24,693 bases of DNA, taken from positions 1 to 24,693 of the IMG/VR virus record IMGVR_UViG_3300033150_000018; one strand, 5' to 3'. Within the stretch, counting starts at the first letter, position 1. Each line of letters starts with the position of its first letter. The notes beneath the pieces are model-generated. The model ran no database searches. It worked only from the letters and a program-made list of their open reading frames with translations, and was not told the origin of the DNA. Of the stretch, positions 1 through 17,583 are shown one piece after another. A program made the translations under genes and the position numbers. This DNA comes from a virus.

Positions 1-134
1 TGTCTGAGCATGGGTGTGAAGTGTTTCACTCTACAATAATTCATGGATATAAAAAAGCAAAGAAGATGGTTGAAGAAGATGAAGATTATAAAGCTATCGT
101 TAACACAATCGAATTACAAAACTTAAAAGTATAG
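1..134 (+). CDS. C-terminal end of a DnaA-domain-IV-like DNA-binding protein (5' partial)
   Basis: The frame starting at position 3 is open from the window edge to a TAG at 132-134 and gives about 43 residues. They include FHSTIIHGYKKAKKMVEED, which resembles the DnaA signature in the DNA-binding helix-turn-helix of DnaA domain IV (typically DHSTVLHA followed by a helix). The rest of the gene lies outside the window, so it is unknown whether an AAA+ ATPase domain is attached; the second such protein in this window (6678-7082) has none. The family binds double-stranded DNA, so replication-origin recognition or transcription control are the obvious roles. The next gene starts one base after the stop, so it is probably in the same operon. 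The homology call rests on one short motif. Confidence 0.5.
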   Translation, partial: SEHGCEVFHSTIIHGYKKAKKMVEEDEDYKAIVNTIELQNLKV

Positions 135-135
135 A

Positions 136-528
136 ATGTTTAAACGGACTGACATCATGAAGCAAGCTCTTGAAGACCCAAAAAGTATTAAGAACATTTT
201 ACCTAAGGGTATTAGTGTTATTGGTAGGGGTGTAAAGATTCAGCAGTTTGATGATGAAATACAAATACTCAACATGGGAAAAGGCGGTGACTATTTTAAA
301 GAATGTTCCGATGAAGAGTATGCTTTCTTTCTGGAAGACGGGTGGAGAAAAGGTTGCACTAAAGTAAGTATGAGCAACTGTCTTCATAAGTTATCTATAA
401 TAGAAAGCAGAATTAAAACTGAATTAAATACTCGTAAGAACGATAAGCATATTCAGAACTTAAAGAACCGTCGAGAAACTTTATTAATTAAATACACTAA
501 TTTAAAAACAGAACTAAATAAAATTTAA
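136..528 (+). CDS. Unknown phage protein with C-terminal coiled coil
   Basis: I do not assign a function. The 130-residue product has a mixed N-terminal half containing GKGGDYFKECSDEEYAFF and a GWRKGC segment around residues 70-75. From about residue 80 to the end it is a highly charged helix (KLSIIESRIKTEL, then NLKNRRETLLIKYTNLKTEL) that should form a coiled coil or a long helical hairpin. ATG at 136 lies one base after the upstream stop, and the next ATG (530) lies one base after its own TAA, which supports a tight operon with the recombination genes. There is no Shine-Dalgarno sequence. A GTTTAAAC palindrome sits in the start region (138-145, inside codons 1-4). A role accessory to recombination or replication is suggested only by its position. 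Confidence 0.8.
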   Translation: MFKRTDIMKQALEDPKSIKNILPKGISVIGRGVKIQQFDDEIQILNMGKGGDYFKECSDEEYAFFLEDGWRKGCTKVSMSNCLHKLSIIESRIKTELNTRKNDKHIQNLKNRRETLLIKYTNLKTELNKI

Positions 529-529
529 T

Positions 530-1111
530 ATGGAAAATGTTTATAAAAATCTGAGTGCAATCTCAGTTGCCGATAAGGTAGAGAAAAAAGGAAGGTTTGA
601 TTATTTATCATGGGCATGGGCTTGGCACTATATCAAGCAAGAATATCCAACAGCTAACCGTACTGTATATGAAAACGATATGGGTATCCCATACTTTACT
701 GACGGTAAGTTTGCAAATGTTAAAGTTGGAATTACTATCAATGGTGTAGAACATATTGATTATCTTCCAGTGTTAGATAATGCTAACCGTTCTATTCCAA
801 TAACAAAGGTAACTTCTTTTGATGTCAACAATGCTATTCAAAGAGAAAAAGATAAAGCAATAGCAATGCACGGATTAGGATTATCATTATGGATAGGAGA
901 AGACACAGCTCGTTTAAACAAAGCGGAAGAAAAGCCAGTAGTTAAAAAAGATGTGAAGCTAAAACTAACCGTAGATAAATGGGATAAAGTTTTAATGTAT
1001 ATAGCTAAGAACAAAGATAAAGGATTAGAATATATAGTATCTCAGCTTAGCACTAAGTATACAGTTACTACCGCAGATAAAAACAAAATCAAAAAAGCTA
1101 TTAATGGATAG
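530..1111 (+). CDS. Sak3-type (DUF1071) single-strand annealing protein
   Basis: The 193-residue product has the hallmarks of the DUF1071/Sak3 group of phage annealing proteins: near residue 23 an F-D-Y-L-S-W-A-W-A-W stretch, then a helix ending in EYPTANRTVYEN and the G-I-P-Y motif. Later come VTSFDVNNAIQREKDKAIA and MHGLGLSLW, the segment that ends the annealing core near residue 125. After a charged linker there is a separate helical C-terminal segment (about residues 140-193). Such proteins coat ssDNA and anneal complementary strands during phage recombination. The gene overlaps the following exonuclease gene by 8 bp, the classic pairing of annealing protein with processive exonuclease, and an SSB-like protein follows soon after. 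Assignment comes from motif memory and context. Confidence 0.85.
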   Translation: MENVYKNLSAISVADKVEKKGRFDYLSWAWAWHYIKQEYPTANRTVYENDMGIPYFTDGKFANVKVGITINGVEHIDYLPVLDNANRSIPITKVTSFDVNNAIQREKDKAIAMHGLGLSLWIGEDTARLNKAEEKPVVKKDVKLKLTVDKWDKVLMYIAKNKDKGLEYIVSQLSTKYTVTTADKNKIKKAING

Positions 1112-1904
1112 AGAAACAATACTCAAGAAGCTTCAGAAAGATTCAGAGTATTATGGTAAGTTTGGCAAGCAGTTTCTTTCTGCTTCCAATATAAGACAAT
1201 TACTATATGAACCTACTGAGTTTAATAAAACAATAAAGACATTACCTTTATTGCATGGTAGATATTTTCACACCAGTATTCTGGAACCCGAAAAGATAGA
1301 TACAATACCAGTATTCAATGCCTCATCAAGAACAACCAATGCGTTTAAACAGTTCGAAGCTGAGCATAACTTAGACAGTTATGATATCCTGTTAACCAAA
1401 GAAAAAGAAAAGTTAGATAAGTTAATTGATAAACTTTTGGGTAACTGGAAGGTGTTTGATATTATTATTGGAGACGGCGTAGAGTATGAGGTTCCAAACA
1501 TAAAGGAGATTCATGGTCAAATGTTTAAAGGTAAGTGTGACGTATTAGTTAACAAACCTTTTGAAGTAGAAGTTGAACAAGACGGTCAGACATTTGTTGT
1601 TGATTATCCAGACGGTGCTATTGTAGATTTAAAAACCAGTTCATCTATTTTTAAATTCAGACATTCCTGTAATGCTTATTGTTATAATTCACAAGCATAT
1701 ATATACCAAGAGCTATTTGAAAAACCATTTTTATTTATTGTAATTGATAAGAATGATGGGCTACTTAAGTTTGCCCCGTGTAGTCCAGAGTTTATTGACA
1801 AGGGGGAAGATAATGTTAAAAAAGCAATTAAAGTTTATGAGAAATTTTATAGCGATGAAGCGACTTGCGACATCGATGATTATGTATATACAGAAATTTT
1901 ATGA
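1104..1904 (+). CDS. RecE/YqaJ-like PD-(D/E)XK exonuclease
   Basis: The 266-residue product has the motif set of phage RecE-like exonucleases. A conserved G-x3-H-x4-E-P motif (H56, E61 in GRYFHTSILEP) is followed by a metal-binding Asp in GKCDV (D146), the catalytic D-x-K in IVDLKTS (D175, K177) and the Q-x3-Y helix motif in NSQAYIY (Q197, Y201). These residues match the PDDEXK_1/exodeoxyribonuclease VIII architecture, which resects a 5' strand to expose 3' ssDNA for the annealing protein encoded just upstream. ATG at 1104 overlaps the end of that gene by 8 bp, consistent with translational coupling. All catalytic positions appear intact and the length is typical. Two GTTTAAAC sites lie in or beside the gene (1343, 1908). 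Confidence 0.87.
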   Translation: MDRETILKKLQKDSEYYGKFGKQFLSASNIRQLLYEPTEFNKTIKTLPLLHGRYFHTSILEPEKIDTIPVFNASSRTTNAFKQFEAEHNLDSYDILLTKEKEKLDKLIDKLLGNWKVFDIIIGDGVEYEVPNIKEIHGQMFKGKCDVLVNKPFEVEVEQDGQTFVVDYPDGAIVDLKTSSSIFKFRHSCNAYCYNSQAYIYQELFEKPFLFIVIDKNDGLLKFAPCSPEFIDKGEDNVKKAIKVYEKFYSDEATCDIDDYVYTEIL

Positions 1905-2043
1905 GTCGTTTAAACGATTCACTAAAGTTGATGATAAAAAATTGTGGATAGAAGTTCCAACTATCTACATGAGCACACAAGAGAAACAAGATTGTATCTC
2001 TAATGCTGTTAATATTTTGGAGCGTAACATTAAAATCAAATAA
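1882..2043 (+). CDS. Small unknown ORF between exonuclease and SSB-like gene
   Basis: This 53-residue ORF, beginning MYIQKFYESFKRFTKVDDKK and ending with a charged helix (CISNAVNILERNIKIK), fills what would otherwise be a 140-bp hole in a closely packed operon. It overlaps the exonuclease by 23 bp and ends one base before the next ATG. The start is uncertain: ATG codons at 1876 and 1882 are both in frame and neither has a Shine-Dalgarno sequence. I chose 1882 for the shorter overlap. The frame is open much further upstream, but that part is a shadow of the exonuclease gene. The composition looks coding, but I recognise no family. It carries the perfect decamer palindrome CGTTTAAACG at 1907-1916. 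Confidence 0.55.
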   Translation: MYIQKFYESFKRFTKVDDKKLWIEVPTIYMSTQEKQDCISNAVNILERNIKIK

Positions 2044-2044
2044 T

Positions 2045-2296
2045 ATGAGCGAAGTAAAAGAAGAAAAGCTGTATTGTGGTAGTGGTGTAGAAAAGTTTGA
2101 CGGTAATCTTATTGAGATTAACGTATGCTTATCTAAGATTCCTCAAGAACATAGGTTCGAATATGAGGGGAAGTGGTATACTAAACTTAAAGTTAATAAG
2201 AAAAAAGAAACTGACGAGTACGGTAAGACACACTCAGTGGAGGTTAACACTTGGAAACCTAAACCACAAAATGATACAGACGACTTGGGATTCTAA
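2045..2296 (+). CDS. Small protein with SSB-like acidic C-terminal tip
   Basis: The start is the ATG at 2045, one base after the preceding stop. An earlier in-frame ATG at 2003 would run through the previous ORF and is less likely. The 83-residue product is predicted mostly beta (CGSGVEKFDGNLIEINVCLS, then WYTKLKVNKKKETDEYGKTH) and ends in a short linker and an acidic-hydrophobic tip, DTDDLGF. That ending resembles the DDIPF-type tail with which single-strand binding proteins recruit partners. Together with the annealing protein and exonuclease immediately upstream, this suggests an SSB-like or recombination-accessory role. It is shorter than a normal OB-fold SSB (about 110-180 residues), so it could be a reduced OB fold or simply a protein that uses an SSB-type interaction tail. 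Existence is secure; function is inferred. Confidence 0.72.
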   Translation: MSEVKEEKLYCGSGVEKFDGNLIEINVCLSKIPQEHRFEYEGKWYTKLKVNKKKETDEYGKTHSVEVNTWKPKPQNDTDDLGF

Positions 2297-2329
2297 GATT
2301 GTTTGGAGCCGTAAGGCACAGCGTAATTT

Positions 2330-2389
2330 AGGGGGGCGTCACAACGACGATTAATTAATACTAATGTAATATTAAATGTTTTCCCCCCT
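2330..2389 (+). terminator. Possible G6/C6 stem, terminator-like
   Basis: AGGGGGG (2330-2336) and CCCCCCT (2383-2389) are complementary over 7 bp, an unusual G/C run in AT-rich DNA. They lie 34 bp after the SSB-like gene's stop codon and are followed by TTCTTT. The 46-nt loop is long for an intrinsic terminator, but its centre (about 2351-2376, alternating TTAATTAATAC...GTAATATTAA) can fold on itself. It could also be an unrelated structured RNA element or coincidence. Confidence 0.3.
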
Positions 2390-2403
2390 TCTTTATGCTG
2401 ACT

Positions 2404-2491
2404 ATGACAAACTCAAATTAAATTAACAGACTGACAAAATAATTTTGATTTTATATTTAAGTATCTCTATATTATTACTTTACTTTGTCAT
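2404..2491. repeat. Inverted and direct TGACAAA repeats flanking the putative promoter
   Basis: ATGACAAA (2404-2411) and its exact reverse complement TTTGTCAT (2484-2491) bracket the candidate promoter, with a third copy, TGACAAA, at 2432-2438. Three copies of a 7-mer in 88 bp of intergenic DNA suggest operator half-sites for a regulator, but such AT-rich words also arise by chance. Confidence 0.35.
2440..2473 (+). promoter_or_regulatory. Candidate promoter for the primase-helicase operon
   Basis: Two readings overlap. TAATTTTG at 2440-2447 matches the Bacteroidota -7 consensus TAnnTTTG, although no clear TTG lies about 20 bp upstream. Alternatively, TTGATT (2445-2450) and TATATT (2468-2473), separated by 17 bp, resemble a sigma70-type -35/-10 pair. 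Either would start transcription some 40-70 bp before the ATG at 2521. The high A+T content makes chance matches likely; the support comes mainly from the location. Confidence 0.35.
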
Positions 2492-2520
2492 TCTCGTCAT
2501 AAAAAATAGAATATAATTAA

Positions 2521-4926
2521 ATGGAAATAACAATCTTCAAAGATATTAAAGTAACCTCACAGCCTTTTTACAGGAGTGCTTTAGTTATCTTGAATAGAAT
2601 AAAAGAAGGGGCTTCTAAGGATTTAGTTAAAAAAATTCGTGAAGAAAAAGATAAGGATATAATTAATTCACTAAAACAAAAACTACCTGCTATATGTTTT
2701 AGCGGTAAGTTTACTAAAAGGAATGATAAGTCATTAACTCAACACAGTGGTTTAATTTGTTTAGACTTTGATGGTTACACTAATCAAAGAGATTTACTGC
2801 AAGAAAAAGAAAGACTATCTAAAAACAATTATGTTTATTCAGTTTTTATATCACCTTCTGGTAAGGGATTAAAAGCTATAGTAAAGATACCACCACTGCC
2901 AGACAATCATGTTAGTTACTTTAATAGTCTGGAAAAATATTTTGCTTCACCTCAGTTTGATAAGACATGTAAAAATGTATCGCGTGTATGTTATGAAAGT
3001 TATGACCCGCTGATTCATATCAATGAGAACGCAAGTGTATGGGATAAGCAAGAAGAAAAAGAATATACTGAAGTTATTAAGAACGTAGACTTACAAACTA
3101 TACCAATCACTGATGAGAATAAAATTGTAGAGATACTTGTAAAGTGGTGGCAAAAGAAATTTCCTATGAACGAAGGACAAAGAAACAATAATGCTTATGT
3201 TCTTGCAGCTGCATTCAACGACTATGGTGTTACAAAAACTCTGGCAGAATATGTTCTTGGTGGATTCGAAACCAGTTCGTTTAAACGCAGTGAGATTAAA
3301 CGCACAATAGATTCTGCTTATTCACAAATACAAAACTTTAATACTAAATATTATGAGGACGATGATAAAGTCACCATGATAAAACATAAATTAAAAAGAG
3401 GTGTATCTAAAAAAGAATTAAGAACTCAGCTAACTGAGCTCGACCCTAACTTAGTTGAGAATGTAATAAACAGATTAGAAGAAGAACAATCTAACCATCA
3501 GTTCTGGACTAAGAATGAGAAGGGTGTAATAAAAATAGTACATGTATCCTTTAAAAACTTTTTAGAAGAGAATGGTTTCTACAAGTTTTGTCCTGAAGGT
3601 TCTAAGAACTATGTCTTTGTGAAGGTTACAAATAATTTAATAGACCACACTTCGGAAAAAGAAATAAAAGACTACATACTAAATTATCTATTAGACTTAG
3701 ATGATATATCAGTATACAATTATTTTGCTGAGCACACCAGATATTTTAGGGAAGAATTTTTAACTCTGCTTTCTTCAATTGATGTATACTTTATTGAAGA
3801 TAAAAAAAATACTTCCTATTTATATTATCGTAATGGTGCAGTAGAAATATCATACAATAATATAAAACAGATTGATTACTTAGACCTTGGTGGTTACGTT
3901 TGGAAAGACCATGTAATAGATAGAGACTTTGCATTGTGTGAAAGTGTTGATTGTGATTACCAAAAGTTTATCCAAAACATTTGTGGTAATTCAACAGAGC
4001 GTGTAAACAGTATGCGTTCTACAATAGGATACATGTTACATGGTTGGAAGAACTTAGCTTATTGTCCTGCTGTTATACTAAATGATGAAATGATTTCTGA
4101 TAATCCAGAGGGTGGTAGTGGTAAAGGTTTGTGGGTCAATGGATTAAGTCACATGAAAAAAGTTGTAGTCATAGACGGTAAGTCATTCAACTTTGAGCGT
4201 TCGTTTGCTTATCAACTTGTAAGTGCTGACACTCAGGTACTCACCTTTGATGATGTTAAAAAACATTTTGATTTCGAAAGATTATTTTCTGTAGTAACAG
4301 AAGGATTAACATTAGAAAAGAAAAACAAAGATGCAATTAAGATTCCATTTGCTAAATCTCCTAAGATAGTTATAACAACTAACTATGCTATCAAAGGTAA
4401 AGGCACATCGTTTGAACGTCGTAAGTGGGAATTAGAATTAGCTCACCATTATAATAAAGATTACACACCTCTTGAAGAGTTTGGTAAACTTATGTTTGGT
4501 GATTGGAATGATGAAGAGTGGTGTCAGTTTGATAACTACATGATACAATGTTTGCAATTGTATTTAGAAAAAGGATTAATCAGAAGTGAGTTTGTCAATC
4601 TTAAAATTAGAAAGCTTTCAGCTGAAACTTGTCACGAATTTATTGAATGGTGTGGCGTGATTGGAGATAACCCTATACATGATAAGTTAAAAGTAGGAGG
4701 TAAAGTACCTAAGAATGATTTGTATACTGACTTTGTAGAAGATAACCCAGACTTTGCTCCTAAATCTAAGATGAGTGTGTCGCGTGTTAGGTTTTCTAAA
4801 TGGTTGGTTGCATTCTCACAATACCAATATGGTTGTGCACCTGAAGAAGGTAGAGACATGCACGCTCGTTGGATTAGATTCAGACATAAATCAGAGTTAA
4901 ACGAACAACAAGACTTTCCATTTTGA
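2521..4926 (+). CDS. Primase-helicase: VirE N-terminal/AEP-like primase fused to DUF5906-type helicase
   Basis: This 801-residue protein carries two enzymes. The N-terminal third looks like a VirE-N/archaeo-eukaryotic primase-like domain: a D-F-D catalytic pair in LICLDFDGY (D82, D84), a SPSGKGLK loop (about 111-118) and the late motif NVSRVCYESYDP (about 152-163). A helical linker follows. The C-terminal half is an SF3/DUF5906-like AAA+ helicase with Walker A GGSGKG (K535, followed by Gly rather than Ser/Thr, as I recall for this group), Walker B LTFDDV (D577/D578), sensor-1 ITTN (N621) and a following FERRKWELE arginine-finger region. It should prime and unwind at the phage fork. It is the first gene after the only intergenic region and overlaps the next gene by four bases (TTGA). 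The fusion is typical of Bacteroidota phages and elements. Confidence 0.88.
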   Translation: MEITIFKDIKVTSQPFYRSALVILNRIKEGASKDLVKKIREEKDKDIINSLKQKLPAICFSGKFTKRNDKSLTQHSGLICLDFDGYTNQRDLLQEKERLSKNNYVYSVFISPSGKGLKAIVKIPPLPDNHVSYFNSLEKYFASPQFDKTCKNVSRVCYESYDPLIHINENASVWDKQEEKEYTEVIKNVDLQTIPITDENKIVEILVKWWQKKFPMNEGQRNNNAYVLAAAFNDYGVTKTLAEYVLGGFETSSFKRSEIKRTIDSAYSQIQNFNTKYYEDDDKVTMIKHKLKRGVSKKELRTQLTELDPNLVENVINRLEEEQSNHQFWTKNEKGVIKIVHVSFKNFLEENGFYKFCPEGSKNYVFVKVTNNLIDHTSEKEIKDYILNYLLDLDDISVYNYFAEHTRYFREEFLTLLSSIDVYFIEDKKNTSYLYYRNGAVEISYNNIKQIDYLDLGGYVWKDHVIDRDFALCESVDCDYQKFIQNICGNSTERVNSMRSTIGYMLHGWKNLAYCPAVILNDEMISDNPEGGSGKGLWVNGLSHMKKVVVIDGKSFNFERSFAYQLVSADTQVLTFDDVKKHFDFERLFSVVTEGLTLEKKNKDAIKIPFAKSPKIVITTNYAIKGKGTSFERRKWELELAHHYNKDYTPLEEFGKLMFGDWNDEEWCQFDNYMIQCLQLYLEKGLIRSEFVNLKIRKLSAETCHEFIEWCGVIGDNPIHDKLKVGGKVPKNDLYTDFVEDNPDFAPKSKMSVSRVRFSKWLVAFSQYQYGCAPEEGRDMHARWIRFRHKSELNEQQDFPF

Positions 4927-6194
4927 TAAAACTTAGAAGATACCAAAAACAAATTGTAACACAGGCTACAGATATTGTAACCCGATATGGATTCGTATAC
5001 TTAGCTATGGAAGTTAGGACGGGTAAAACATTAACAAGCTTAAGTGTATGCGAACGTTTAAACGCAACCAATGTTTTGTTTGTTACAAAGAAGAAAGCTA
5101 TATCAAGTATTGAAGATGACATGCAAAAACTACAGGCACCGTTTAAACTTACTGTCATTAACTATGAATCATTACATAAGATTAGTCATGATTGTATATA
5201 TGATTATTTAATATTAGATGAAGCTCATACTCTTGGTGCATTTCCAAAACAAAATAAAAGAAGTAAACAAATAAAAAGGTTTATAGATATACATACTCCA
5301 AGAGTTATATTACTTTCTGGTACACCAACACCTGAATCTTACAGCCAAATGTTTCATCAAGTGTCTGGTATTAATGGTAATCCTTTTGGTTATTGTAAAA
5401 ACTTTTATCAGTTTGCTCGCAACTATGTAGATGTAAAAAAGAAAATCATAAATGGTTTTCCTATTAATGATTACAAGGCTGGAAGAAAAGAGATACTTGA
5501 TAAGATGAAGAAGTATACCATATCTTACTCACAAAAAGAAGCAGGGTTCAAGGTACAAACTGATGAAGAGATTTTATACGTTGATATATGCGATGATGTT
5601 TCAGCTTTGATAAAAAGATTATCTAAAGATAGAGTTATAGAAGGAGAGAATGAAGTTGTACTTGCTGACACTCCTGTAAAACTTATGATTAAAACTCATC
5701 AGTTAAGTTCAGGCACAATTAAATTTGAGAGTGGTAACTCTATGGTATTGTGTTACAAGAAAGCTCAGTACATAAGACAAAAGTTTCAAGGAAAAAAGAT
5801 TGCTATCTTCTACAAATTTAAAGAAGAACTTAACGCATTGAAAGAAGAGTATGGCGATTTGTTATGCGAAACATTAGAAGAGTTTAATAACTCTGCGAAG
5901 TGTATAGCTTTACAAATTGTCAGTGGTAGAGAGGGAATTAGTTTGCGTAAAGCAGAAGCATTAGTATACTATAATATTGATTTCAGTGCCACAAGTTACT
6001 GGCAATCAAGAGATAGAATGACAACCAAGGACAGGTTGTATAATAAAATTTACTGGATATTCTCCAGAACAGGGATTGAAAAGCAGATATACAAAGCCGT
6101 TGTTAAAAAGAAAGATTACACATTAAATCATTTCAAGAAAGATTTATTAACTTTAGACGATGACGGAACAGCAGATTCAATCGAAGATAATTAA
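4923..6194 (+). CDS. SNF2-type superfamily 2 helicase/translocase
   Basis: The 423-residue product has the SF2 motifs in order: a Q-like RRYQ near residue 5, motif I EVRTGKT (30-36, K35), motif II DEAH in LILDEAHTLG (99-102), motif III SGTPTP (132-137), motif V around VSGREGISLRKAE and motif VI YWQSRDRM. The spacing and the late Q-S-R-D-R-M motif fit the compact SNF2-like helicases common in phages, which act as dsDNA translocases in replication fork remodelling or recombination. The start is TTG at 4923, overlapping the primase-helicase stop as TTGA. Without that TTG the RRYQ motif would be cut off. The gene overlaps the following VRR-NUC nuclease by 35 bp, suggesting the two act together. 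It carries two GTTTAAAC sites only 85 bp apart (5056, 5141). Confidence 0.88.
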   Translation: MIKLRRYQKQIVTQATDIVTRYGFVYLAMEVRTGKTLTSLSVCERLNATNVLFVTKKKAISSIEDDMQKLQAPFKLTVINYESLHKISHDCIYDYLILDEAHTLGAFPKQNKRSKQIKRFIDIHTPRVILLSGTPTPESYSQMFHQVSGINGNPFGYCKNFYQFARNYVDVKKKIINGFPINDYKAGRKEILDKMKKYTISYSQKEAGFKVQTDEEILYVDICDDVSALIKRLSKDRVIEGENEVVLADTPVKLMIKTHQLSSGTIKFESGNSMVLCYKKAQYIRQKFQGKKIAIFYKFKEELNALKEEYGDLLCETLEEFNNSAKCIALQIVSGREGISLRKAEALVYYNIDFSATSYWQSRDRMTTKDRLYNKIYWIFSRTGIEKQIYKAVVKKKDYTLNHFKKDLLTLDDDGTADSIEDN

Positions 6195-6402
6195 AGAGAA
6201 GGAGAGTGAAGGATACTATGTTATCAAACTAAAGATGACAAATAAAAACGGTATCCCTGACTTAATTGCAATACCTCCTAACTCTGACGTAGAATTTATT
6301 GAAGTTAAAAAATCGAATGGGAAAGTTTCTAAACTACAAAAATATAGAATCGATGAACTTGAAAGACATGGGTGTAAAGTTTTCGTACGAAAAGGACTAT
6401 GA
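6160..6402 (+). CDS. VRR-NUC domain nuclease
   Basis: This 80-residue protein is a stand-alone VRR-NUC fold. An N-terminal helix (TEQQIQSKIIKEKESEGYY) leads into a strand and then the catalytic signature G-I-P-D (D34) followed by E-V-K (E48, K50) in FIEVKKSNGKVSKLQ, with a C-terminal helix-strand. The length is normal for phage VRR-NUC proteins, which cut branched or structured DNA; known relatives include the nuclease domain of FAN1 and phage resolvase-like enzymes. ATG at 6160 overlaps the upstream helicase by 35 bp, so the two are probably translationally coupled, and a helicase-nuclease partnership in resolving replication or recombination intermediates is the natural inference. Confidence 0.87.
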   Translation: MTEQQIQSKIIKEKESEGYYVIKLKMTNKNGIPDLIAIPPNSDVEFIEVKKSNGKVSKLQKYRIDELERHGCKVFVRKGL

Positions 6403-6721
6403 CTTTGATGAAGATTTTTTAGAGACATTATATAATGCTCCACAGACTTTGTCTTTAGTTATAGCTTTATATATTGAAGAGCATTTGCCTGACTTACCTG
6501 TCAATGAATTATCTACACATCTTATGGCTGGCTTAGTATATCATTTTGATGAGCCTGTGCCATTTGTAATAGAAGTTACAAGACCAGACGAGTACCTTAC
6601 TATTCTTACTGACTTAGTGTTTATAGATATGGACGAGTACTTAGACTTTATTAATCTCAAATTAAATCTAAAAATCGATGAAAGATTCAGCTATCCAAGA
6701 CTTGTTACTAACAGCAAGTAA
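6368..6721 (+). CDS. Acidic unknown phage protein
   Basis: I recognise no family. The frame opens at 6299, but the first part lies inside the VRR-NUC gene. I place the start at the ATG at 6368 (MGVKFSYEKDYDFDEDF), giving 117 residues and a 35-bp overlap, the same as the overlap upstream. A GTG at 6371 is an alternative. The protein is strongly acidic and rich in Asp/Glu and aromatic residues, with amphipathic helices (ALYIEEHLPDLPVNELSTHL). It looks like a small soluble protein, possibly an interaction partner or DNA mimic, but nothing proves this. It overlaps the next gene by 44 bp in another frame, so expression is probably coupled. Confidence 0.65.
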   Translation: MGVKFSYEKDYDFDEDFLETLYNAPQTLSLVIALYIEEHLPDLPVNELSTHLMAGLVYHFDEPVPFVIEVTRPDEYLTILTDLVFIDMDEYLDFINLKLNLKIDERFSYPRLVTNSK

Positions 6722-7082
6722 ATATTTTAAAGTAGACATTCATACTAAATCCAGAAAACAAGAACATATAGAAGCTCGCGCTATTGTTTACAGCATCATG
6801 AGAGATTGTTTAAACATGACCTATAAAGATATTGGAAAAGTTTTTAACAAGAACCACGCTACTATTCTTCATGCAGTCAATGAACTACCTTACATGATTA
6901 AATACACTAAAGGATTAGGTGAAAAAAGACATGAACTTTTGGAATTATGGGGCTCCGCATACAGTGCTTATACAGTTATTGAGCGAGCTGAGAAGGTAAA
7001 ATATTTGCAGGATAAAATATTTTTGCTTAATTTGGAAGCGAAACTATTAACAAAACAATTAAACGAACTTCTTAATGTCTAA
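6678..7082 (+). CDS. DnaA-domain-IV-like DNA-binding protein
   Basis: The 134-residue product contains a good match to the DNA-binding domain IV of DnaA. Residues about 20-75 form helices around YKDIGKVFNKNHATILHAVN, which parallels the DnaA signature (IG..F..RDHSTVLHA). There is no AAA+ ATPase domain, Walker motif or domain I. The C-terminal ~35 residues (KYLQDKIFLLNLEAKLLTKQ) form a leucine-rich coiled coil, suggesting a dimer. Such truncated DnaA-like proteins occur in phages and could bind an origin, compete with host DnaA, or regulate transcription. Overlaps on both sides (44 bp upstream, 8 bp downstream) place it in the replication operon. A second protein with the same signature ends at position 134. 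Confidence 0.75.
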   Translation: MKDSAIQDLLLTASKYFKVDIHTKSRKQEHIEARAIVYSIMRDCLNMTYKDIGKVFNKNHATILHAVNELPYMIKYTKGLGEKRHELLELWGSAYSAYTVIERAEKVKYLQDKIFLLNLEAKLLTKQLNELLNV

Positions 7083-8064: not shown

Positions 8065-11000
8065 CGTCTGTTTACTCTTACTCTTTTAGGTCTTCTGTTT
8101 CTTGTCTTTCTTCTGTCACCACTTCTTTCTCTTTGTGGTCTTCTTTTTTCTTTTTGTTTTTCTAATTCTTTTATACGTTTCTTTTGTTCAGGAGTAAGCT
8201 TTGTTTCAGGAGGAAACATATCTTTAATTATAACTCTTCTAACATCTTTGTAAAATGGAACCAATCCTAAATTACCTAACACCTCTAACAATAATCTATT
8301 TTCTATTTCATCCATAGCTTTCTGTCTTGTCTCAGGTTTCTTTGCGGTTTGACTACTAACACCTACCTTTAATAAACGAGACAAAGTATTTATCACGGGT
8401 CCATAAGGTCCAGAAAATGAATCAACAAATATTTCTTCTAAACTTTTCTTTTTCAAATCCTCTACACCAACCTGACTAAATACAATAGAGTGTTTATACT
8501 TATCATACTCCTCACCACCTCTTAAACCTTTTAATAAATCTCTGTTTACTGATTCTTCTAAATAGAAATTAATTGGTAGCATAGGTATGTTTCCTAACGA
8601 CTGTCTTGCAAGAAGAGATATCATTGCCCCAACTATCTGTCTTGCCATTACATCTTCTATGTCTTCGTCCTTATCATCTTTTGCGTCAAACAATTCTTCG
8701 TCTAACACACTTGATAACATACTGTAAGCTGTCATATATGCAGACATTCTAAATGTAATACCTGCAAGTAATCCTGCCGCTTCTGCTTTAGATAAATCAC
8801 CTTTATTAAATAAAGCAAATATTGCATTACGAGCAGTACCAAATTCAAACAAACTAAATCGAGCCATAAAAGAATTCGCCATTCTATATATACCCATCTG
8901 CATACTATCATCTGTTCTCCTCATGTTTTTTATAATAGCATCAGCTGCGTTATTAGAAGTAGCAACAGTGATTACTTCGTTGTCTGCTAAAGCTGTAGCG
9001 TTATCACGAGCTTCTTTAAACTCAGGTGATAAATATTTTGAGGTTCCGTCAGCTATTTCTTGAAAATCTTTTTTAGTAATCTTAACATCTTCACCAGTTA
9101 ATTCTTTTACTTGAGCTTCAAAATTCTGTGCCCAGTTTCCAAACCATAAAGGACGAGACATTGCTTTATCAGGAAATGTTATTATGTTTGATGCTATTGC
9201 ATTTACTATTCTACCTGTTAGTTTTAATCCTGAATACTTTAATATCTCTCCAAAGACATTGTTTAAACGACTTGTAGCTGAACCTGCTTTTGAATCTAAA
9301 CCACCGTAGTCTGACATCTGAGTATGTTTAGACTCCATCACATCAGGATTGTATAGTTTACTGGTTTGTGATGACCTTAGATTTGTCATAGCATCAAAAC
9401 CAGCTGTAACATTTTTAGGGTTAGCAACCCAAGTCCCAAAGTTTTTAAAAGCTCTCATTGCCACAGCAGGATTCTTTGCAATGATACCAAAGTTTGCAAT
9501 AATCTCAGCCCCCATTCTGTAAACAGAACCAAGAGTTGCTTGATAACCAAGACGCATCATGTTCATCGTGCTTAAGTTTCCACTTGGTGTGTCGGTATAA
9601 GTTCCTTTAAGTATAACATCTACTAACTCAGTCTTTGCTTTTTGAATAGCATTGATGGCTGCTTTTGCGTCTTTATTACCAGTCTTTGCTTCTTCTTTTA
9701 TTTTGTTTAAAGTTTGCTCAACCTCTCTCAAAGTCTGTGTCATTTCAAAATCCATTATAGTTTCTTGAGCACCACGCATAGCTGAATAACCTGGGTCAAA
9801 ACTAATAGCCTTAGCACCATTAGTTCTTTCAACTAATGTATTTGATTTAGCACTGTTAACATTGTTGTTTACTTTGTCAATTAATTTTTGTACACTTTGG
9901 TCTTTTGTTTTAGGGTCTAATACCACACGGTGACTATAATTATTATACAACTCTACAGGAACACCATGTAGGTTAGCAGCAATATATTCTGCATCTGAAG
10001 CTAAAGAATTATTTACATCATCATAAAGAGCTAAAGCTTTCTTTTCTTTAGCTGTTAAAGAGTTTTCTATTTTAGTTAAACTAATTTCTCCATCTACTTC
10101 AAACTCTGTTTTTAATTCATTTAATATTTTTGCATCCTGTTCGTTTAAGATACCATCGTTTTCTATTGCTTCTAAAGTTTTATTTACAAAATCTATAGCT
10201 GATGGAGTCTTAGCGTTTGGTTTGCCGTCAACAAAATTAGACTCATGCTCTCTTTGCAATTGAAGCATCCTTAGTTTATATTTCTTTTTAACTAACGCGT
10301 TTCTTGTTATACCTAACCTATTACCGTCGGTGTTTAACAATTTAGCAGCAGCATCTATTTTTGTTTGTAATCTTTTTACTCTTGACTTAACTGTTTCTAA
10401 AGACCGTGCTAACTTTCCAAATGTATTGTTATAAATAGTCTTACTATTTCTGTTTCCAAAAACATCATCGATAAAAAATGTAGAAAGACTACGGATTCTT
10501 TCAGTTAAAAACCCTCTTCCAGTTCTTAAATTTTTAATCTTACTATACATATTAGTCATAGCATCCACATACTTATTCATTCTAAACTTTTGTATCAGTG
10601 GATTTACTTTATTAAAACTATCAAGTGCATTTAATTTTGTAGCTATGTCTGTAACTGCTTTACCTGCGAAACCATTCTTTATGTTTTCTATAATTTGTTC
10701 TAATACTTTTAAGTCAGAATCATCCAGTTGCTTCATTTGTTCTGGAGTCATCTTGAGTACTTGACGAGCATCTTCCTTAGCTCTTTTATCTGGTATATTA
10801 TTTAGGTCTGCCTCAGTAACTTCCTTTTGTTTTTCAGAAATATTTTTAATAGCAGTGTCCGCATCAAAATCATCAGGCACAGGTTCTGCTTTTATACTAT
10901 CAATATCTTGATTAATATTCTCTTGTACTGCATTTAATATATCTAATGCTTTAGGTAAAGTCTCTTGAGCTTTCTTAAATGACGGAACTTTTTTACCAGA

Positions 11001-14000
11001 ACCATACTCTTTTGCTAACTCTATAAAAGAATCTAACTGAGCTTCTGGTATTAAAGAAGGGTTAATACTGAATAAAGTTTTTAATGCTGCTTTTAAATCA
11101 GCTGGTAGTACACCAGTCTTAGCACCACCTACTTGCTTCTTAGCTTTTTTGGATTGACTCTTCGCAGTGTTTAAACGCTGCACATAATCTTGTTTAGTAA
11201 ATACATTATCAACAAATGTAAGGAAGCTATCTACTGATTTTTTATTATTAAGATTTACATTGGCAAATCTTTTTGTAATAGCTTTTACTTTAGACTGTGA
11301 AATCTTACCAAGGTTTTTACCAAAGCTACTTATTAGACCAGCTATGTTTTTCATAGACTTTTTATAAGCAGCTGCTGATTCTCTTGCAGCTTTAGCTTGT
11401 TTTCTTATCTGGTCTTTAAGTGCTACTCTTTCGTTTACTACAACTTTTTTATCTTTAGGTTTCCCCAGTATCTTTTTAACACTTGGAGCTTTCTTAATTT
11501 TTATACCAAGTTTTTCATTTAGTTCTCTGACTAATTGGTTTCTTTCTATATCATTAAGTTGCTGATAAAGTTTTGAGTTCTGTAAATACTTTAAAGTATT
11601 GTCAAGTATTTTTTTAGGACTTGTGCTTTCACCTACCTTTCTACCTTTGGTCTTTTTAATTATATCATTAATGATACTCTGTACCCTGTTAGGGTCAGCT
11701 TTAGCTTCAGGTGTTGTTGGTGCACCTATATATTCGTTGGGAGATATTCCTTGCTTCTGAGCGTCACGATTTATCGCTGAGATGACTTTCTGATAAAGGC
11801 TTGACCCTTCTTGCCCTTGCTGAATGGAGCTTTGTCTACCATCTGAAAGAATCTGTTGCCTGCTCTTCGCGTCAATAAATCTTGAGTTGATTGCTTTTTT
11901 GTCTGAGACTTCATAAGTAATATTTTTTTCGTCTAATATATCTAACAGCTTTGCCAGCTTTGCATCCTTATCTGCATCACTAAAATCAAAGATGTCCAGC
12001 AAAGATAGTAAATTATTTGTTTCCGACAAAGTATACTCATCAATACCAGCTTCTTTCAGAGCTTGGAATGTACCTTCACTGTCTGAAACTTTAATTGTAA
12101 TCTCATTACCGTTGTGATTTTCTGCACCATCTGTCGTATATTCTGCAGCAATAGAAGACTCTTGTACTTCGGGTGCTAACGCAGCAGTTATTGCAGCATA
12201 TTGTGAAGCTTGTTCTAACGTTGCGTTTTTTAATTTTACAACATTACTTACCTCTCTAATCTTTGTGCCTGCATCATTTACATAACCACCTACTGACTCT
12301 TCAATTTCAATCTCTACTCCTAAATCATCTGCAATATTTTGAAGTGATTGTTTATACTCTTGGTATTGTGGGGACTTTCTTAAACCACCTGCTTCAGATG
12401 TAGACTCTATAGAAGTCTCAAAGAATGGTGCAACATTAACACTTACTTCCTCTTGCGTTTGCGTCTCGATAGGCTTGTCAGGAGTTTGGTTTTGGGTTTC
12501 GCCCTCTTGGGTAACGACCCCAGCGGCGTCTCCTTCTCCCACTTCTGGGCTATCTGTGGTAGATTCTTGTACATCCACCTGCGTTGCGCTTGACTCTTGA
12601 ATGGCATTGGCTCTTTCGTTTATTTGTTGTTCGGTTGGTTCAAGTATACCTTCAGATATTAGCTGGTCTTTAGCTTGTTCTTTAGCCTCTTCATCATCTA
12701 AATCTTTTACATTCTTAAACCTATCTACTTCAGCTGCAGTTTTCTTAGCAGCTTCTATTGCTAATTTAAGTAATTCTTTTTGTTTGTTTTTAACCTGCTC
12801 ATCAGAAGGTTTTTCTACACCCTCTTCTTGTAATGCTTGTATAGCTTCCAACTGTGATACAGAAAAATATTTTTCTAAACCATCTGGTAACTTTACAGTT
12901 TCTCCAACATCTGTTTCTGCTTCTTTTACAATAGCATCAAGCTCTTCATTTATTTCTTTTATTCTCTCTTTGTTTTCTGGAGAGTCTGGATTCTCCATAT
13001 TATCTCTTTCTTGAAGTAGCTCAATGTATCTACTTCTTCTTTCTCCTTTTAAGTTATCAGGTGTTTGCTGATTCAAGTTTGCTTCTTGTCTTCTTTTAGT
13101 ATATTTTTCTTCAAGAGCTGTGTCATTTTCAATAACAAATTGTGAATCTATTATTTCTTGGTCTGTCATGGTATCAATAGCAGCCTCAACATCTTGCTTA
13201 CTCATTAACATTTTAGTACCTTTCTTTGTCAGGTACCCATAGCTTGGTGGTTTAAAAAAGTTTTTACCTTTACCTACCATATTATTACCTATGTCTGTTA
13301 AGCTCATACCGCTTACTGCAGTGGGTATTGATAATACAGAAGAAGCTTGTCCTGTTATACCTTCAAATCCAATCTCAGCTACATCCATTTCTTGACCCGT
13401 AACTGCTCTTGCGGTAGCTTCACCACCTGCTCCACCAACAGCTTCAATACCTGCAGCTTTTAAAGCAGCTCTGGCTTTCATTCCTTTTGTTATAGCTTTA
13501 TCCGCAGCCTTTGCAGCCTTTATAGTACTACCCCCTATCTTACTTGCAGCACCCCTTGTAAACGCATCTATAGTACCTATAACAAGACCTCTTGCCATGG
13601 CTTTGTTTCTTATAGATTGCATAGCAGTAGGGTTGTTTAATATTTTTCTTACACCATCTTTGTCAAATTTAAATCCAGCACGGTCAACTTCTTCTTTCAT
13701 AAACTCAGTAAAGGCCAAACCTGTTTCAAGTGTAGCACTTGCTCCTAAGATGGCACCGTTTATACCACCTCCTACTGCTCCTACTGCACCCGCTATTGCA
13801 CTACCTATTGGTCCACCTATAGAACCCGCTATTGCACCTGTTCCTCCTGCAACTGTCGCACCTAATGCTCCACCAGCTGCTGCACCTCCTACCACTTCAG
13901 GGTTTACCATTGATGCAACTGACGATACAAATAACTGACCAATGACTGAAGGATTTTGAGCTACACCGAACATAAAACCTAAAACTCCCCCACCTTCATT

Positions 14001-14648
14001 TTCATATATTCGGTTGAAGTCTTTCATCTCATCAGACATACCATAGTTGTCCATGTTCTTAACAGCAGCAATATATTGTTCTACATCTGCATCTGAGGTT
14101 TCACTACCTGACATGAATAATCTTCGAGCATCATCTATGGTAGCACCTTGACCAAGACCTTGCGCTCCTGCTCTATACATATCACCAAAGAAATCTGTAA
14201 CTGTATTTTTACCCAGCATTTCTTCAAGCCAAGTATTCTTCTCACCAACATCTACGTTAGCACCAAACTTAGTACCGACAGGTTTATCGGGTAAGGGTTG
14301 TTTGACAAGTGATTGATTAAGAGAAGCAGGGTTTAAACGGTCTACACTTCTATTTGGTGAACCCAAAGAACCAGCTCCTTGCGGCGAAGGAGTCTCTTCT
14401 GCAGGAGTTTGTGTAGCCGAATCCACAGGCTGTTGAGGACCCTCTCCAGAAAAATCTTTTTTTTTTAAGGGTGTTAGAAACTCCCCAAACTGTTCTTCGC
14501 TTTCAAATACACCTTCTGGTAGCATCTCAAACAAATCTTCAGTTCCCTCATCTTCTATAAATTCTTGAAGCTCTTCTACATCTCTAAAGGTTCCCTCTGG
14601 AACCATAGCAAATAAGTCTTCTAATATTTTTAATTGAATCTCATTCAT
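8061..14648 (-). CDS. Giant (2195 aa) internal/ejection virion protein, possibly polyvalent
   Basis: Seen in order: two tandem copies of an acidic motif (VPEGTFRDVEELQEFI, LPEGVFESEEQFGEFL; residues about 14-57); an A10 tract coding three lysines (about 61-63); a Pro/Gln/Ser-rich linker; a Gly/Ala-rich membrane-type zone (about 245-305, repeated GxxxG); an acidic low-complexity linker (about 650-740); an alpha/beta domain (about 770-925); long basic and acidic helical or coiled-coil stretches; hydrophobic segments near 1960-1985 and 2000-2032; and a very basic tail (about 2150-2195) ending RRPKRVRVNRR. This resembles the large internal proteins that short-tailed phages eject into the cell with DNA. 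The 770-925 domain recalls domains of polyvalent proteins, but only from memory. I see no polymerase or lysozyme motif. The gene follows the 693-residue gene by 3 bp. Confidence 0.75.
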   Translation of the reverse strand: MNEIQLKILEDLFAMVPEGTFRDVEELQEFIEDEGTEDLFEMLPEGVFESEEQFGEFLTPLKKKDFSGEGPQQPVDSATQTPAEETPSPQGAGSLGSPNRSVDRLNPASLNQSLVKQPLPDKPVGTKFGANVDVGEKNTWLEEMLGKNTVTDFFGDMYRAGAQGLGQGATIDDARRLFMSGSETSDADVEQYIAAVKNMDNYGMSDEMKDFNRIYENEGGGVLGFMFGVAQNPSVIGQLFVSSVASMVNPEVVGGAAAGGALGATVAGGTGAIAGSIGGPIGSAIAGAVGAVGGGINGAILGASATLETGLAFTEFMKEEVDRAGFKFDKDGVRKILNNPTAMQSIRNKAMARGLVIGTIDAFTRGAASKIGGSTIKAAKAADKAITKGMKARAALKAAGIEAVGGAGGEATARAVTGQEMDVAEIGFEGITGQASSVLSIPTAVSGMSLTDIGNNMVGKGKNFFKPPSYGYLTKKGTKMLMSKQDVEAAIDTMTDQEIIDSQFVIENDTALEEKYTKRRQEANLNQQTPDNLKGERRSRYIELLQERDNMENPDSPENKERIKEINEELDAIVKEAETDVGETVKLPDGLEKYFSVSQLEAIQALQEEGVEKPSDEQVKNKQKELLKLAIEAAKKTAAEVDRFKNVKDLDDEEAKEQAKDQLISEGILEPTEQQINERANAIQESSATQVDVQESTTDSPEVGEGDAAGVVTQEGETQNQTPDKPIETQTQEEVSVNVAPFFETSIESTSEAGGLRKSPQYQEYKQSLQNIADDLGVEIEIEESVGGYVNDAGTKIREVSNVVKLKNATLEQASQYAAITAALAPEVQESSIAAEYTTDGAENHNGNEITIKVSDSEGTFQALKEAGIDEYTLSETNNLLSLLDIFDFSDADKDAKLAKLLDILDEKNITYEVSDKKAINSRFIDAKSRQQILSDGRQSSIQQGQEGSSLYQKVISAINRDAQKQGISPNEYIGAPTTPEAKADPNRVQSIINDIIKKTKGRKVGESTSPKKILDNTLKYLQNSKLYQQLNDIERNQLVRELNEKLGIKIKKAPSVKKILGKPKDKKVVVNERVALKDQIRKQAKAARESAAAYKKSMKNIAGLISSFGKNLGKISQSKVKAITKRFANVNLNNKKSVDSFLTFVDNVFTKQDYVQRLNTAKSQSKKAKKQVGGAKTGVLPADLKAALKTLFSINPSLIPEAQLDSFIELAKEYGSGKKVPSFKKAQETLPKALDILNAVQENINQDIDSIKAEPVPDDFDADTAIKNISEKQKEVTEADLNNIPDKRAKEDARQVLKMTPEQMKQLDDSDLKVLEQIIENIKNGFAGKAVTDIATKLNALDSFNKVNPLIQKFRMNKYVDAMTNMYSKIKNLRTGRGFLTERIRSLSTFFIDDVFGNRNSKTIYNNTFGKLARSLETVKSRVKRLQTKIDAAAKLLNTDGNRLGITRNALVKKKYKLRMLQLQREHESNFVDGKPNAKTPSAIDFVNKTLEAIENDGILNEQDAKILNELKTEFEVDGEISLTKIENSLTAKEKKALALYDDVNNSLASDAEYIAANLHGVPVELYNNYSHRVVLDPKTKDQSVQKLIDKVNNNVNSAKSNTLVERTNGAKAISFDPGYSAMRGAQETIMDFEMTQTLREVEQTLNKIKEEAKTGNKDAKAAINAIQKAKTELVDVILKGTYTDTPSGNLSTMNMMRLGYQATLGSVYRMGAEIIANFGIIAKNPAVAMRAFKNFGTWVANPKNVTAGFDAMTNLRSSQTSKLYNPDVMESKHTQMSDYGGLDSKAGSATSRLNNVFGEILKYSGLKLTGRIVNAIASNIITFPDKAMSRPLWFGNWAQNFEAQVKELTGEDVKITKKDFQEIADGTSKYLSPEFKEARDNATALADNEVITVATSNNAADAIIKNMRRTDDSMQMGIYRMANSFMARFSLFEFGTARNAIFALFNKGDLSKAEAAGLLAGITFRMSAYMTAYSMLSSVLDEELFDAKDDKDEDIEDVMARQIVGAMISLLARQSLGNIPMLPINFYLEESVNRDLLKGLRGGEEYDKYKHSIVFSQVGVEDLKKKSLEEIFVDSFSGPYGPVINTLSRLLKVGVSSQTAKKPETRQKAMDEIENRLLLEVLGNLGLVPFYKDVRRVIIKDMFPPETKLTPEQKKRIKELEKQKEKRRPQRERSGDRRKTRNRRPKRVRVNRR
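14459..14470 (-). other. A10 homopolymer (possible slippage site) in the 2195-aa gene
   Basis: The + strand has ten consecutive T between about 14457 and 14466, read as A10 in the coding strand (L-K-K-K-D). It falls just after the N-terminal tandem motif. Runs of nine or more A are known sites of RNA polymerase slippage, and here one added A gives a TAG within about 35 codons. Confidence 0.4.
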
Positions 14649-16737: not shown

Positions 16738-17583
16738 CTAATATCCGTATAGTAATTTTTGTAATCCAGCTAAATCAGTTACATCTCCAATACCTGCTTG
16801 TAGGTCTTTGAATCTTGGGTCATCTCCAGTGAAAAACTCTTTAGCTTTTGTTATATCAAGATTACCTTTAGTGTTTAATTGTCTTACCTCTCTTGGAGTC
16901 AAGTCAAGTTTTCTTAATTTCTCAGCTCTTTGAGCTCGTGTCAATCCTGTTCCTCCCTCTTCTACAGTCTTACCTAAATCTTCACTTGTACCTAAACCTG
17001 ATTCTAAGTTAGTACCAGCTCTATCAGCTTTAGATGTACCAAACAATGGAACTAATGCAGCAGCTGAAGACGCTGCTTGTGCAGCTCCTTGTATACCACC
17101 TGCTATTTGTTGTGAATATTGACTACCATAATCTCTTGCTATTTGTGCTTGGTCAGCAGCTGCTCCTACTTCCATATCAATAAGCTGTTGATTTAACTTA
17201 TCTTTTGCTTCTGCTTTCATTTTCTGATTTTCATACAACGCATCTTGCATACCTGTACGAACAACTTCATTAGCTTGTGCGGCAGCTTGTTGTAAACCTC
17301 CGACACCAGCTGCTAAATTTCTTGCGTCTCCCTGTTGTAATGCAGCTAACGCTTGAGCTGCAACTTGTTGGTTCTGTTTAAACTGATTCTCAAAAGCATC
17401 AATAGGAACATTTAATGTTTCATAAAAATTCTTTTCTGCTCTTTCTTTGGCTTTTTGCATAAGAGCTTTCTGTTCTCTTTGTGCTTTCCTTTGGTCACGC
17501 TTAGCTTTTGCTGCATTAGCAAAACTAACACCCGAACCTACTGCAGACAAACCAACTCCTATTGCTGCTATTATTCCTGACAT
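16738..17583 (-). CDS. Probable internal virion protein with N-terminal membrane segment (T7 gp14-like role)
   Basis: The 281-residue product starts with a hydrophobic, Gly-rich segment (IIAAIGVGLSAVGSGVSFAN, residues 3-23) long enough to enter a membrane. A strongly basic/acidic coiled coil follows (KAKRDQRKAQREQKALMQKA), then Ala/Gln-rich helices (about 75-200), including a hydrophobic AAQAASSAAALVPLFG stretch. Length, N-terminal membrane segment and Gln/Ala-rich helices match the smallest ejection protein of podoviruses (T7 gp14 type), which forms a channel for DNA entry; sequence similarity is not claimed. It overlaps the upstream cupin-like gene by 13 bp and precedes the two larger candidate ejection proteins by 4 bp, supporting co-production. 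The leader is A/T-rich with no Shine-Dalgarno. Confidence 0.7.
   Translation of the reverse strand: MSGIIAAIGVGLSAVGSGVSFANAAKAKRDQRKAQREQKALMQKAKERAEKNFYETLNVPIDAFENQFKQNQQVAAQALAALQQGDARNLAAGVGGLQQAAAQANEVVRTGMQDALYENQKMKAEAKDKLNQQLIDMEVGAAADQAQIARDYGSQYSQQIAGGIQGAAQAASSAAALVPLFGTSKADRAGTNLESGLGTSEDLGKTVEEGGTGLTRAQRAEKLRKLDLTPREVRQLNTKGNLDITKAKEFFTGDDPRFKDLQAGIGDVTDLAGLQKLLYGY

Follow-up and report, generated by a model that had tools for sequence, protein, structure and literature searches.

The viral DNA analysed in this study (the window) is a stretch of 24,693 nucleotides, positions 1 to 24,693 of the IMG/VR record IMGVR_UViG_3300033150_000018. It carries a replication module with two proteins resembling domain IV of DnaA, here termed A and B, and many copies of a dispersed octamer, GTTTAAAC. 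The explanation that accounts best for the data, and that we consider probable, is that A and B bind the phage origin and that the octamer is read by a different protein, a member of the family phrog_6361. The octamer would thus be the cognate operator of the phrog_6361 protein and not a site for A or B. The octamer matters more than the DnaA-like pair; it ties a likely DNA site to a large family of phage proteins whose annotations go no further than protease or the like.

The octamer GTTTAAAC is a perfect palindrome. It occurs 13 times in the window, compared with 1.13 copies expected from trinucleotide models of the individual sequences (the basis of all expected octamer counts given here), and 0 of 100 shuffles reach this number. 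The whole record of 43,191 bases contains 20 copies (about 2 expected), and the reversed control occurs once. Eight sites lie in the replication module: one overlaps the ATG of the gene at 136–528 (138–145), and the others are located within the annealing-protein gene (912–919), within the exonuclease gene (1343–1350) and directly past its stop codon (1908–1915), within the primase gene (3279–3286), twice within the helicase gene (5056–5063 and 5141–5148), and within gene B (6808–6815). Further sites are found in the late region at 9261–9268, 11169–11176, 14331–14338, 17376–17383, and 21079–21086. Across the clade of the window, in which pairwise identity falls to 78%, the eight module sites are invariant wherever the sequence is covered, and conservation stops one base beyond the octamer; as background, 9.1% of the 8-mer windows in the clade alignment are invariant. 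The clade member G004 has 46 sites, of which 32 are within the early 22% of its genome (P = 1e-11) and 11 are outside open reading frames (ORFs) of at least 45 residues, compared with 4.8% expected. Its early sites are kept in the window's record at all eight aligned places and its late sites at six of 11, against a background of 24.6% of 8-mers kept. The octamer is real and under selection.

A scan of viral contigs for three close copies of GTTTAAAC (motif-first) recovered 82 stretches in 80 loci. After removal of two loci belonging to the clade of the window and of a tandem array, the rich set comprised 37 loci with at least seven copies; these loci contain 7–26 copies versus 0.05–0.71 expected, at GC contents from 0.29 to 0.55. 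When the proteins of the 37 rich loci, G004, and a second clade record (G007) were clustered, phrog_6361 was the leading cluster, present in 25 of 39, and the next cluster reached 17. A phrog_6361 profile finds the gene in 28 of the 80 motif-first loci. The G004 protein matches phrog_6361 in a PHROG profile search at 8.8e-27; its gene is the first early ORF of at least 45 residues on its strand, with three octamers about 270–340 bp upstream, and is missing from the relative G009.

Loci were also collected through the protein, with the motif unused (protein-first): 67 through alignment A3 and one through A2, 68 in all, including one (L343) on the same contig as the motif-first locus L169. Enrichment (P < 1e-4) in one octamer of the six-word family (G/C)T(T/G)TA(A/C)A(C/G) was identified in 57 of the 68, and the remaining 11 were not enriched. 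The enriched word is GTGTAAAC in 34 loci, GTTTAAAC in 16, GTGTACAC in four, CTGTAAAG in two, and CTTTAAAG in one. Random analogous octamer families score a mean of 0.42 and a maximum of 6 on the same loci (n = 290). Among mirrored-permutation controls, four reach 17 with sets that still contain GTTTAAAC or CTTTAAAG, and the next highest scores 4. Loci selected by their primase are enriched in a family octamer in eight of 80 cases, exactly the known clade.

The family was found by tblastn in 163 named phages. Among 13 named phages chosen by the protein, GTTTAAAC occurs 16 times in Pan1, 17 in R5C, seven in Mica, four each in ep3, Persinger, and Mano, once in 4A and in Bogota, and not at all in the other five. 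Several of the phages poor in GTTTAAAC are rich in a second word, GTTTACAC, which is one base pair off a palindrome and is present on both strands (19/8, 16/6, and 17/22); it reaches 39 copies in Bogota (0.04 expected), 27 in Tweety19 (0.10), 22 in Zeta1847 (0.08), and 13 in 4A (0.22). One phrog_6361 locus without the octamer, L400, contains nine copies of CATTGGCG (0.15 expected), which may be a diverged cognate site.

The octamer variants follow the protein. A tree built from 52 distinct rows of the protein-first set requires 11 changes of motif type, compared with a mean of 19.8 and a minimum of 15 in 200 shuffles. On the first tree, which had 75 rows (71 different) and a separate label for nine motif-first rows, GTGTAAAC is strongly clustered (seven changes versus 24.5). 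In one alignment column, Arg is found in 53 of 53 loci whose octamer has an outer G (G...C), and Tyr, Tyr, and Ala in the three with an outer C (C...G). Zero to two family octamers occur in phages that have lost the Q-x-T-R stretch of the C-terminal ribbon (Eden, Armstrong, Katzastrophic, FP1, and Epa5); for Eden the count covers two words of the six.

In the proposed architecture of the phrog_6361 protein, a domain with a SprT/Spartan-like metalloprotease fold precedes a C-terminal ribbon. The ribbon would recognize (G/C)T(T/G)TA(A/C)A(C/G), probably in dimeric form, and its Arg would select the outer G; the resulting prediction is that this single residue sets the specificity for the outer base. 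The HExxH motif is present as HELVH in the G004 protein, and in alignment A4 its residues show conservation of 90% or more. It is degenerate in L107, L125, and L159 and absent from the short ORFs of L112, L120, and L167, where the matching ORF consists of the ribbon alone. Because these ribbon-only ORFs and degenerate motifs occur in octamer-rich loci, the sequences point to the ribbon as the likely DNA-reading part of the protein.

Placement of the sites is consistent with autoregulation. In ep3, Persinger, Mano, and Mica, the annotated start of the phrog_6361 gene is preceded by a site at a distance of 15–19 bp; in Tweety19 and Powerpuff this distance is 36 bp. Among 25 motif-first gene copies, some with uncertain start codons, ten carry a site in the 250 bp upstream. 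Intergenic sites make up 12 of 27 in Tweety19 (7.9% expected) and seven of 36 in Bogota (6.3% expected). We infer that the protein would bind sites near its own gene together with tens of dispersed sites, and that it may repress or road-block early transcription in a stoperator-like manner.

Several observations weigh against this interpretation. The metalloprotease likeness is weak: the Pfam SprT-like score is 16.9 bits, below the cut-off of 25.6; a Foldseek search with the SprT-like model gave no match at E ≤ 0.001; and a VIA-align comparison of the model with SPRTN (6mdw/6mdx) reached a Z of 7.5. On the first tree, GTTTAAAC alone is only weakly clustered, 24 of 500 shuffles giving as few changes, and CTGTAAAG shows no clustering. 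The link between Arg and the outer base (P = 3.6e-5) is post hoc, depends on three C-type loci, and ignores kinship. Nine of the 11 octamer-free protein-first loci keep Q-x-(T/N)-R, and seven octamer-positive loci do not have this exact signature. The six-word family was fixed after the protein-first loci had been viewed, and random families are therefore the relevant control. Some motif-first loci are related to one another or to the clade (the L170 protein is 92% identical to that of G004), and 14 of the 37 rich loci do not show phrog_6361 in the recovered stretch. No site is located within 250 bp upstream of 15 of the 25 motif-first gene copies, including that of G004, and 35 of the 46 G004 sites lie within ORFs, unlike typical operators. 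The window's record and seven other motif-rich records do not contain the gene, which is found in two of the ten motif-rich clade records (G004 and G007), so that its presence in the others is presumed. In G004 it lies 5.5–6.1 kb upstream of A, and the other eight records extend at most about 4 kb upstream; the phrog_6361 gene of the window's phage should be in the part of the genome that is missing from the record.

A role outside transcription is the alternative that survives best, although we regard it as somewhat unlikely. The phrog_6361 protein might read the octamer for genome marking, for DNA condensation or segregation, or for sequence-directed proteolysis of DNA-bound host proteins. 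Sites running through coding sequence and late genes, as those 35 G004 sites within ORFs illustrate, would suit such a role, as would the resemblance of the N-terminal domain to SPRTN and the conserved HExxH residues. However, sites are concentrated in the early region of G004 (the 32 of 46 noted above), they are in excess between the genes of Tweety19 and, in several phages, stand directly before the phrog_6361 gene, and some members with a degenerate HExxH or none still have many sites. A search restricted to tyrosine integrases (PF00589) found none in the ten clade records, including G004 and G007, and early-gene shut-off is therefore likelier in the window's clade than immunity.

Some octamer arrangements and neighbours differ from the dispersed pattern. 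A perfect tandem array of ten exact GTTTAAAC copies with a 29-bp period, unlike the dispersed sites, is present in L174 (6526–6794), and L153 (6546–6767) contains thirteen copies, mostly 16–17 bp apart with variable spacers, resembling an operator or iteron array. The 105,284-base record G015 (L094–L099) seems to be two related phages joined, with 29 octamers in the first ~40 kb and one in the rest. Triple GTTTAAAC is also found in many bacterial and archaeal genome contigs among the matches listed. In both Persinger (16174) and Mica (32519), a ParB-like gene has an octamer touching its start. ParB was considered as a rival reader and rejected: PF02195 exceeded its cut-off in none of 15 records, with one sub-threshold match in Mica, in a search that omitted Persinger and Katzastrophic, both of which have ParB-like annotations.

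Regarding A and B, the initial annotation had described two DnaA-domain-IV-like proteins, the complete one without an ATPase domain, and this description is borne out. Protein B (6678–7082, plus strand; 134 residues) matches Bac_DnaA_C (PF08299) at 49.2 bits in a Pfam profile search, above the curated cut-off of 31.5 bits. The window contains only the last 43 residues of A (3–134, plus strand), a fragment that by itself gives no Pfam match. The complete A of 101 residues is encoded in L002 (4030–4335), whose alignment with the window covers 8,064 bases at 99.9% identity; the protein scores 38.4 bits, also above the cut-off, and retrieves solved DnaA proteins in a sequence search. Iterated profiles seeded by A or by B reach the same end size, 118 proteins in 80 loci each. 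The predicted structure of B (predicted local distance difference test, pLDDT, 86.4) superimposes on DnaA domain IV bound to DNA with template-modelling (TM) scores, by target length, of 0.85 (3pvp) and 0.84 (1j1v), root-mean-square deviations of 1.5–1.6 Å, and Foldseek E values of 4e-4 to 2e-3. Its C-terminal end is modelled as a 30-residue helix (residues 103–132) that may mediate dimer or partner contacts. A family search identified no AAA+ ATPase domain III in either A or B.

In DnaA structures, bases are contacted by an Arg together with Asp433, His434, and Thr435 of the recognition helix. In alignment A5, one Arg and the recognition-helix His are invariant; Asp433 is replaced by Phe in A and by Asn in B, and Thr435 by Ser or Ala. 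Two irregular gene forms were identified among the relatives: in L027 (11161–11805), which belongs to an octamer-free relative, B is fused into the next gene (214 residues), and in L045 (3867–4159) gene A is apparently split across two frames.

Origin recognition is the likeliest role of A and perhaps of B, because an AT-rich, repeat-bearing gap precedes the primase gene. As stand-alone DnaA domain IV modules, A and B would bind repeats in this gap and thereby mark the phage origin for the phage primase and helicase. The candidate origin (2297–2520) contains a G6/C6 hairpin-like repeat recognized by eye, and an ATGAC word at 2404 and inverted GTCAT words at 2487 and 2496 flank the AT-rich stretch; the gaps of relatives are arranged comparably around different words (TCAACA, TCGACA, and TGAACA). 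A strict test for NNRACR repeats is passed by the pre-primase gaps of 27 of the 80 loci, compared with four of 400 windows within the primase gene. DnaA boxes with at most one mismatch occur at 0.70 per kb in the pre-primase gaps versus 0.41 per kb overall; in the window, classical boxes (TTATCCACA, at most two mismatches) are not enriched (98 versus 100.7 expected). The suggestion of an origin-recognition or regulatory pair in the initial annotation is thus plausible for the origin, given the repeats; their tie to B is not significant (19 of 43 versus 4 of 20, P = 0.09), and the window's own gap fails the strict test, both of which count against an origin role.

A and B could instead regulate transcription or compete for the DnaA boxes of the host, which we judge unlikely. 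DnaA domain IV by itself can bind DNA without initiating, and the origin gap is only a candidate; however, the conserved place of A and B beside the annealing, primase, and helicase genes, the repeats preceding the primase, and the absence of a DnaA-box excess in the window favour origin binding.

Other readers of the octamer have little in their favour. It is highly improbable that a host factor reads it and that phrog_6361 is merely a fellow traveller. The wide range of GC content among the 37 rich loci and the window's record without the gene would be compatible with a host reader, but the octamer variants track the tree of the phage protein and one of its residues, and phages of the same host, Microbacterium foliorum, differ in the ribbon, Percival having 14 copies of GTTTACAC and Eden, Armstrong, and Katzastrophic none.

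Reading of the octamer by A, B, or an A/B dimer, as the initial annotation had proposed, has very little chance of being correct and was rejected: the relative L027/G009, whose module shows 76% identity and whose aligned parts are 79% identical to those of G004, encodes both A and B yet has no GTTTAAAC site in 60 kb, its B recognition helix (KNHATIMHA) is identical to that of the motif-rich L003, and only one of the 80 motif-first loci shows an A/B homologue in its recovered stretch (L116, of the window's own clade). The C-terminal helix of B could permit dimerization, and the Phe at the Asp433 position, present in six of six A proteins of the GTTTAAAC clade and none of 66 others, favours A as a reader, but it represents one evolutionary contrast.

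The replication module between A and B is encoded on the plus strand. Adjoining A is a protein of 130 residues and unknown function (136–528) with no convincing family (best PHROG E, 0.0095). It is followed by a Sak-type single-strand annealing protein (530–1111; PF06378, 1.4e-33; phrog_659, 1e-44), an exonuclease-VIII-like PDDEXK nuclease (1104–1904; PF12684, 6.5e-9; phrog_412, 3.5e-20), a BT4734-like primase/helicase with PriCT-1 (2521–4926; PF08800, 2.9e-20; phrog_28855, 1025 bits), a SNF2/ResIII-type helicase (4923–6194; PF00176 and PF04851; phrog_62, 1.3e-52), and a VRR-NUC nuclease (6160–6402; PF08774, 2.8e-12). Relatives of the module were fetched by the primase as 80 viral loci, the best 80 of 251. 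A is located upstream in all 68 loci with at least 3.3 kb of upstream sequence, and B downstream in 39 of the 59 with at least 4 kb of downstream sequence. Among the 49 loci covering both sides, 32 have A and B and 17 have A alone. The flanking of the recombination and primase genes by the pair, already recognized in the window, is therefore recurrent; A is a core member of the module, and B is often missing. Two further observations were made among the relatives: L060 and L068 each contain six copies of CGTAAGTC and ACTTACGA, possibly another dispersed site, and an opposite-strand operon of G004 (57002–59221, L085) encodes products of 533 and 85 residues that by eye resemble GroEL and GroES.

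Similar to DnaA domain IV (PF08299; 1j1v and 3pvp), A and B share the profile, the invariant Arg, and the His and Thr of the recognition helix, and B shares the fold; unlike DnaA, both lack the AAA+ ATPase, and the equivalents of Asp433 and Thr435 are replaced. Stand-alone DnaA-C proteins of pelagiphages and of the Olleya phage Harreka_1 are likewise small phage proteins annotated as DnaA-like or replication initiation; their identities are 29–39% among the 20 matches listed, none of which is covered to 80%. The DnaA-like pair by itself is a modest addition to these known proteins.

The actinobacteriophage proteins of phrog_6361 named 'SprT-like protease' belong to the same family as the product of the first early gene of G004. 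Their annotations are protease, transcription elongation protein, antirestriction, or hypothetical, with no DNA site tied to them among the search matches listed, and a literature search of titles and abstract openings found neither of the two octamers (GTTTAAAC and GTTTACAC) nor SprT tied to phage regulation. The hosts of the phages that show the link between octamer and phrog_6361 include actinobacteria, proteobacteria, and a cyanobacterium, with Bacteroidetes as a probable addition, because those relatives of the window's primase that have named hosts are from phages of Flavobacteriia and Bacteroides. According to PMC8758107, the cluster AZ phage Powerpuff forms stable lysogens that are immune to AZ phages, Zeta1847 and Percival are EH phages, and neither cluster has yielded an identifiable repressor. 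Powerpuff has 27 copies of GTTTACAC (0.13 expected) together with a phrog_6361 gene, and Zeta1847 and Percival have 22 and 14 copies, which makes phrog_6361 a candidate for that repressor. More tentatively, and from sequence evidence, phrog_6361 may be the repressor of the AZ phages of Arthrobacter and the EH phages of Microbacterium and, in unrelated phages, a stoperator-like regulator of wide distribution, its ribbon a new reader of an 8-bp palindrome and its metalloprotease domain a built-in switch, which could relieve repression by cutting the protein itself or a partner.

The stoperators of Cluster A mycobacteriophages, as described in PMC9283540, are likewise many copies of a short site with a phage-encoded reader, and comparable numbers were found here in Tweety19 (27), Powerpuff (27), and G004 (46). 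The Cluster A site is asymmetric, and its reader is a repressor that acts as a monomer and has two DNA-binding domains (PMC9283540); the phrog_6361 octamer is an 8-bp palindrome or near-palindrome, and its candidate reader would combine a metalloprotease-fold domain with a ribbon.

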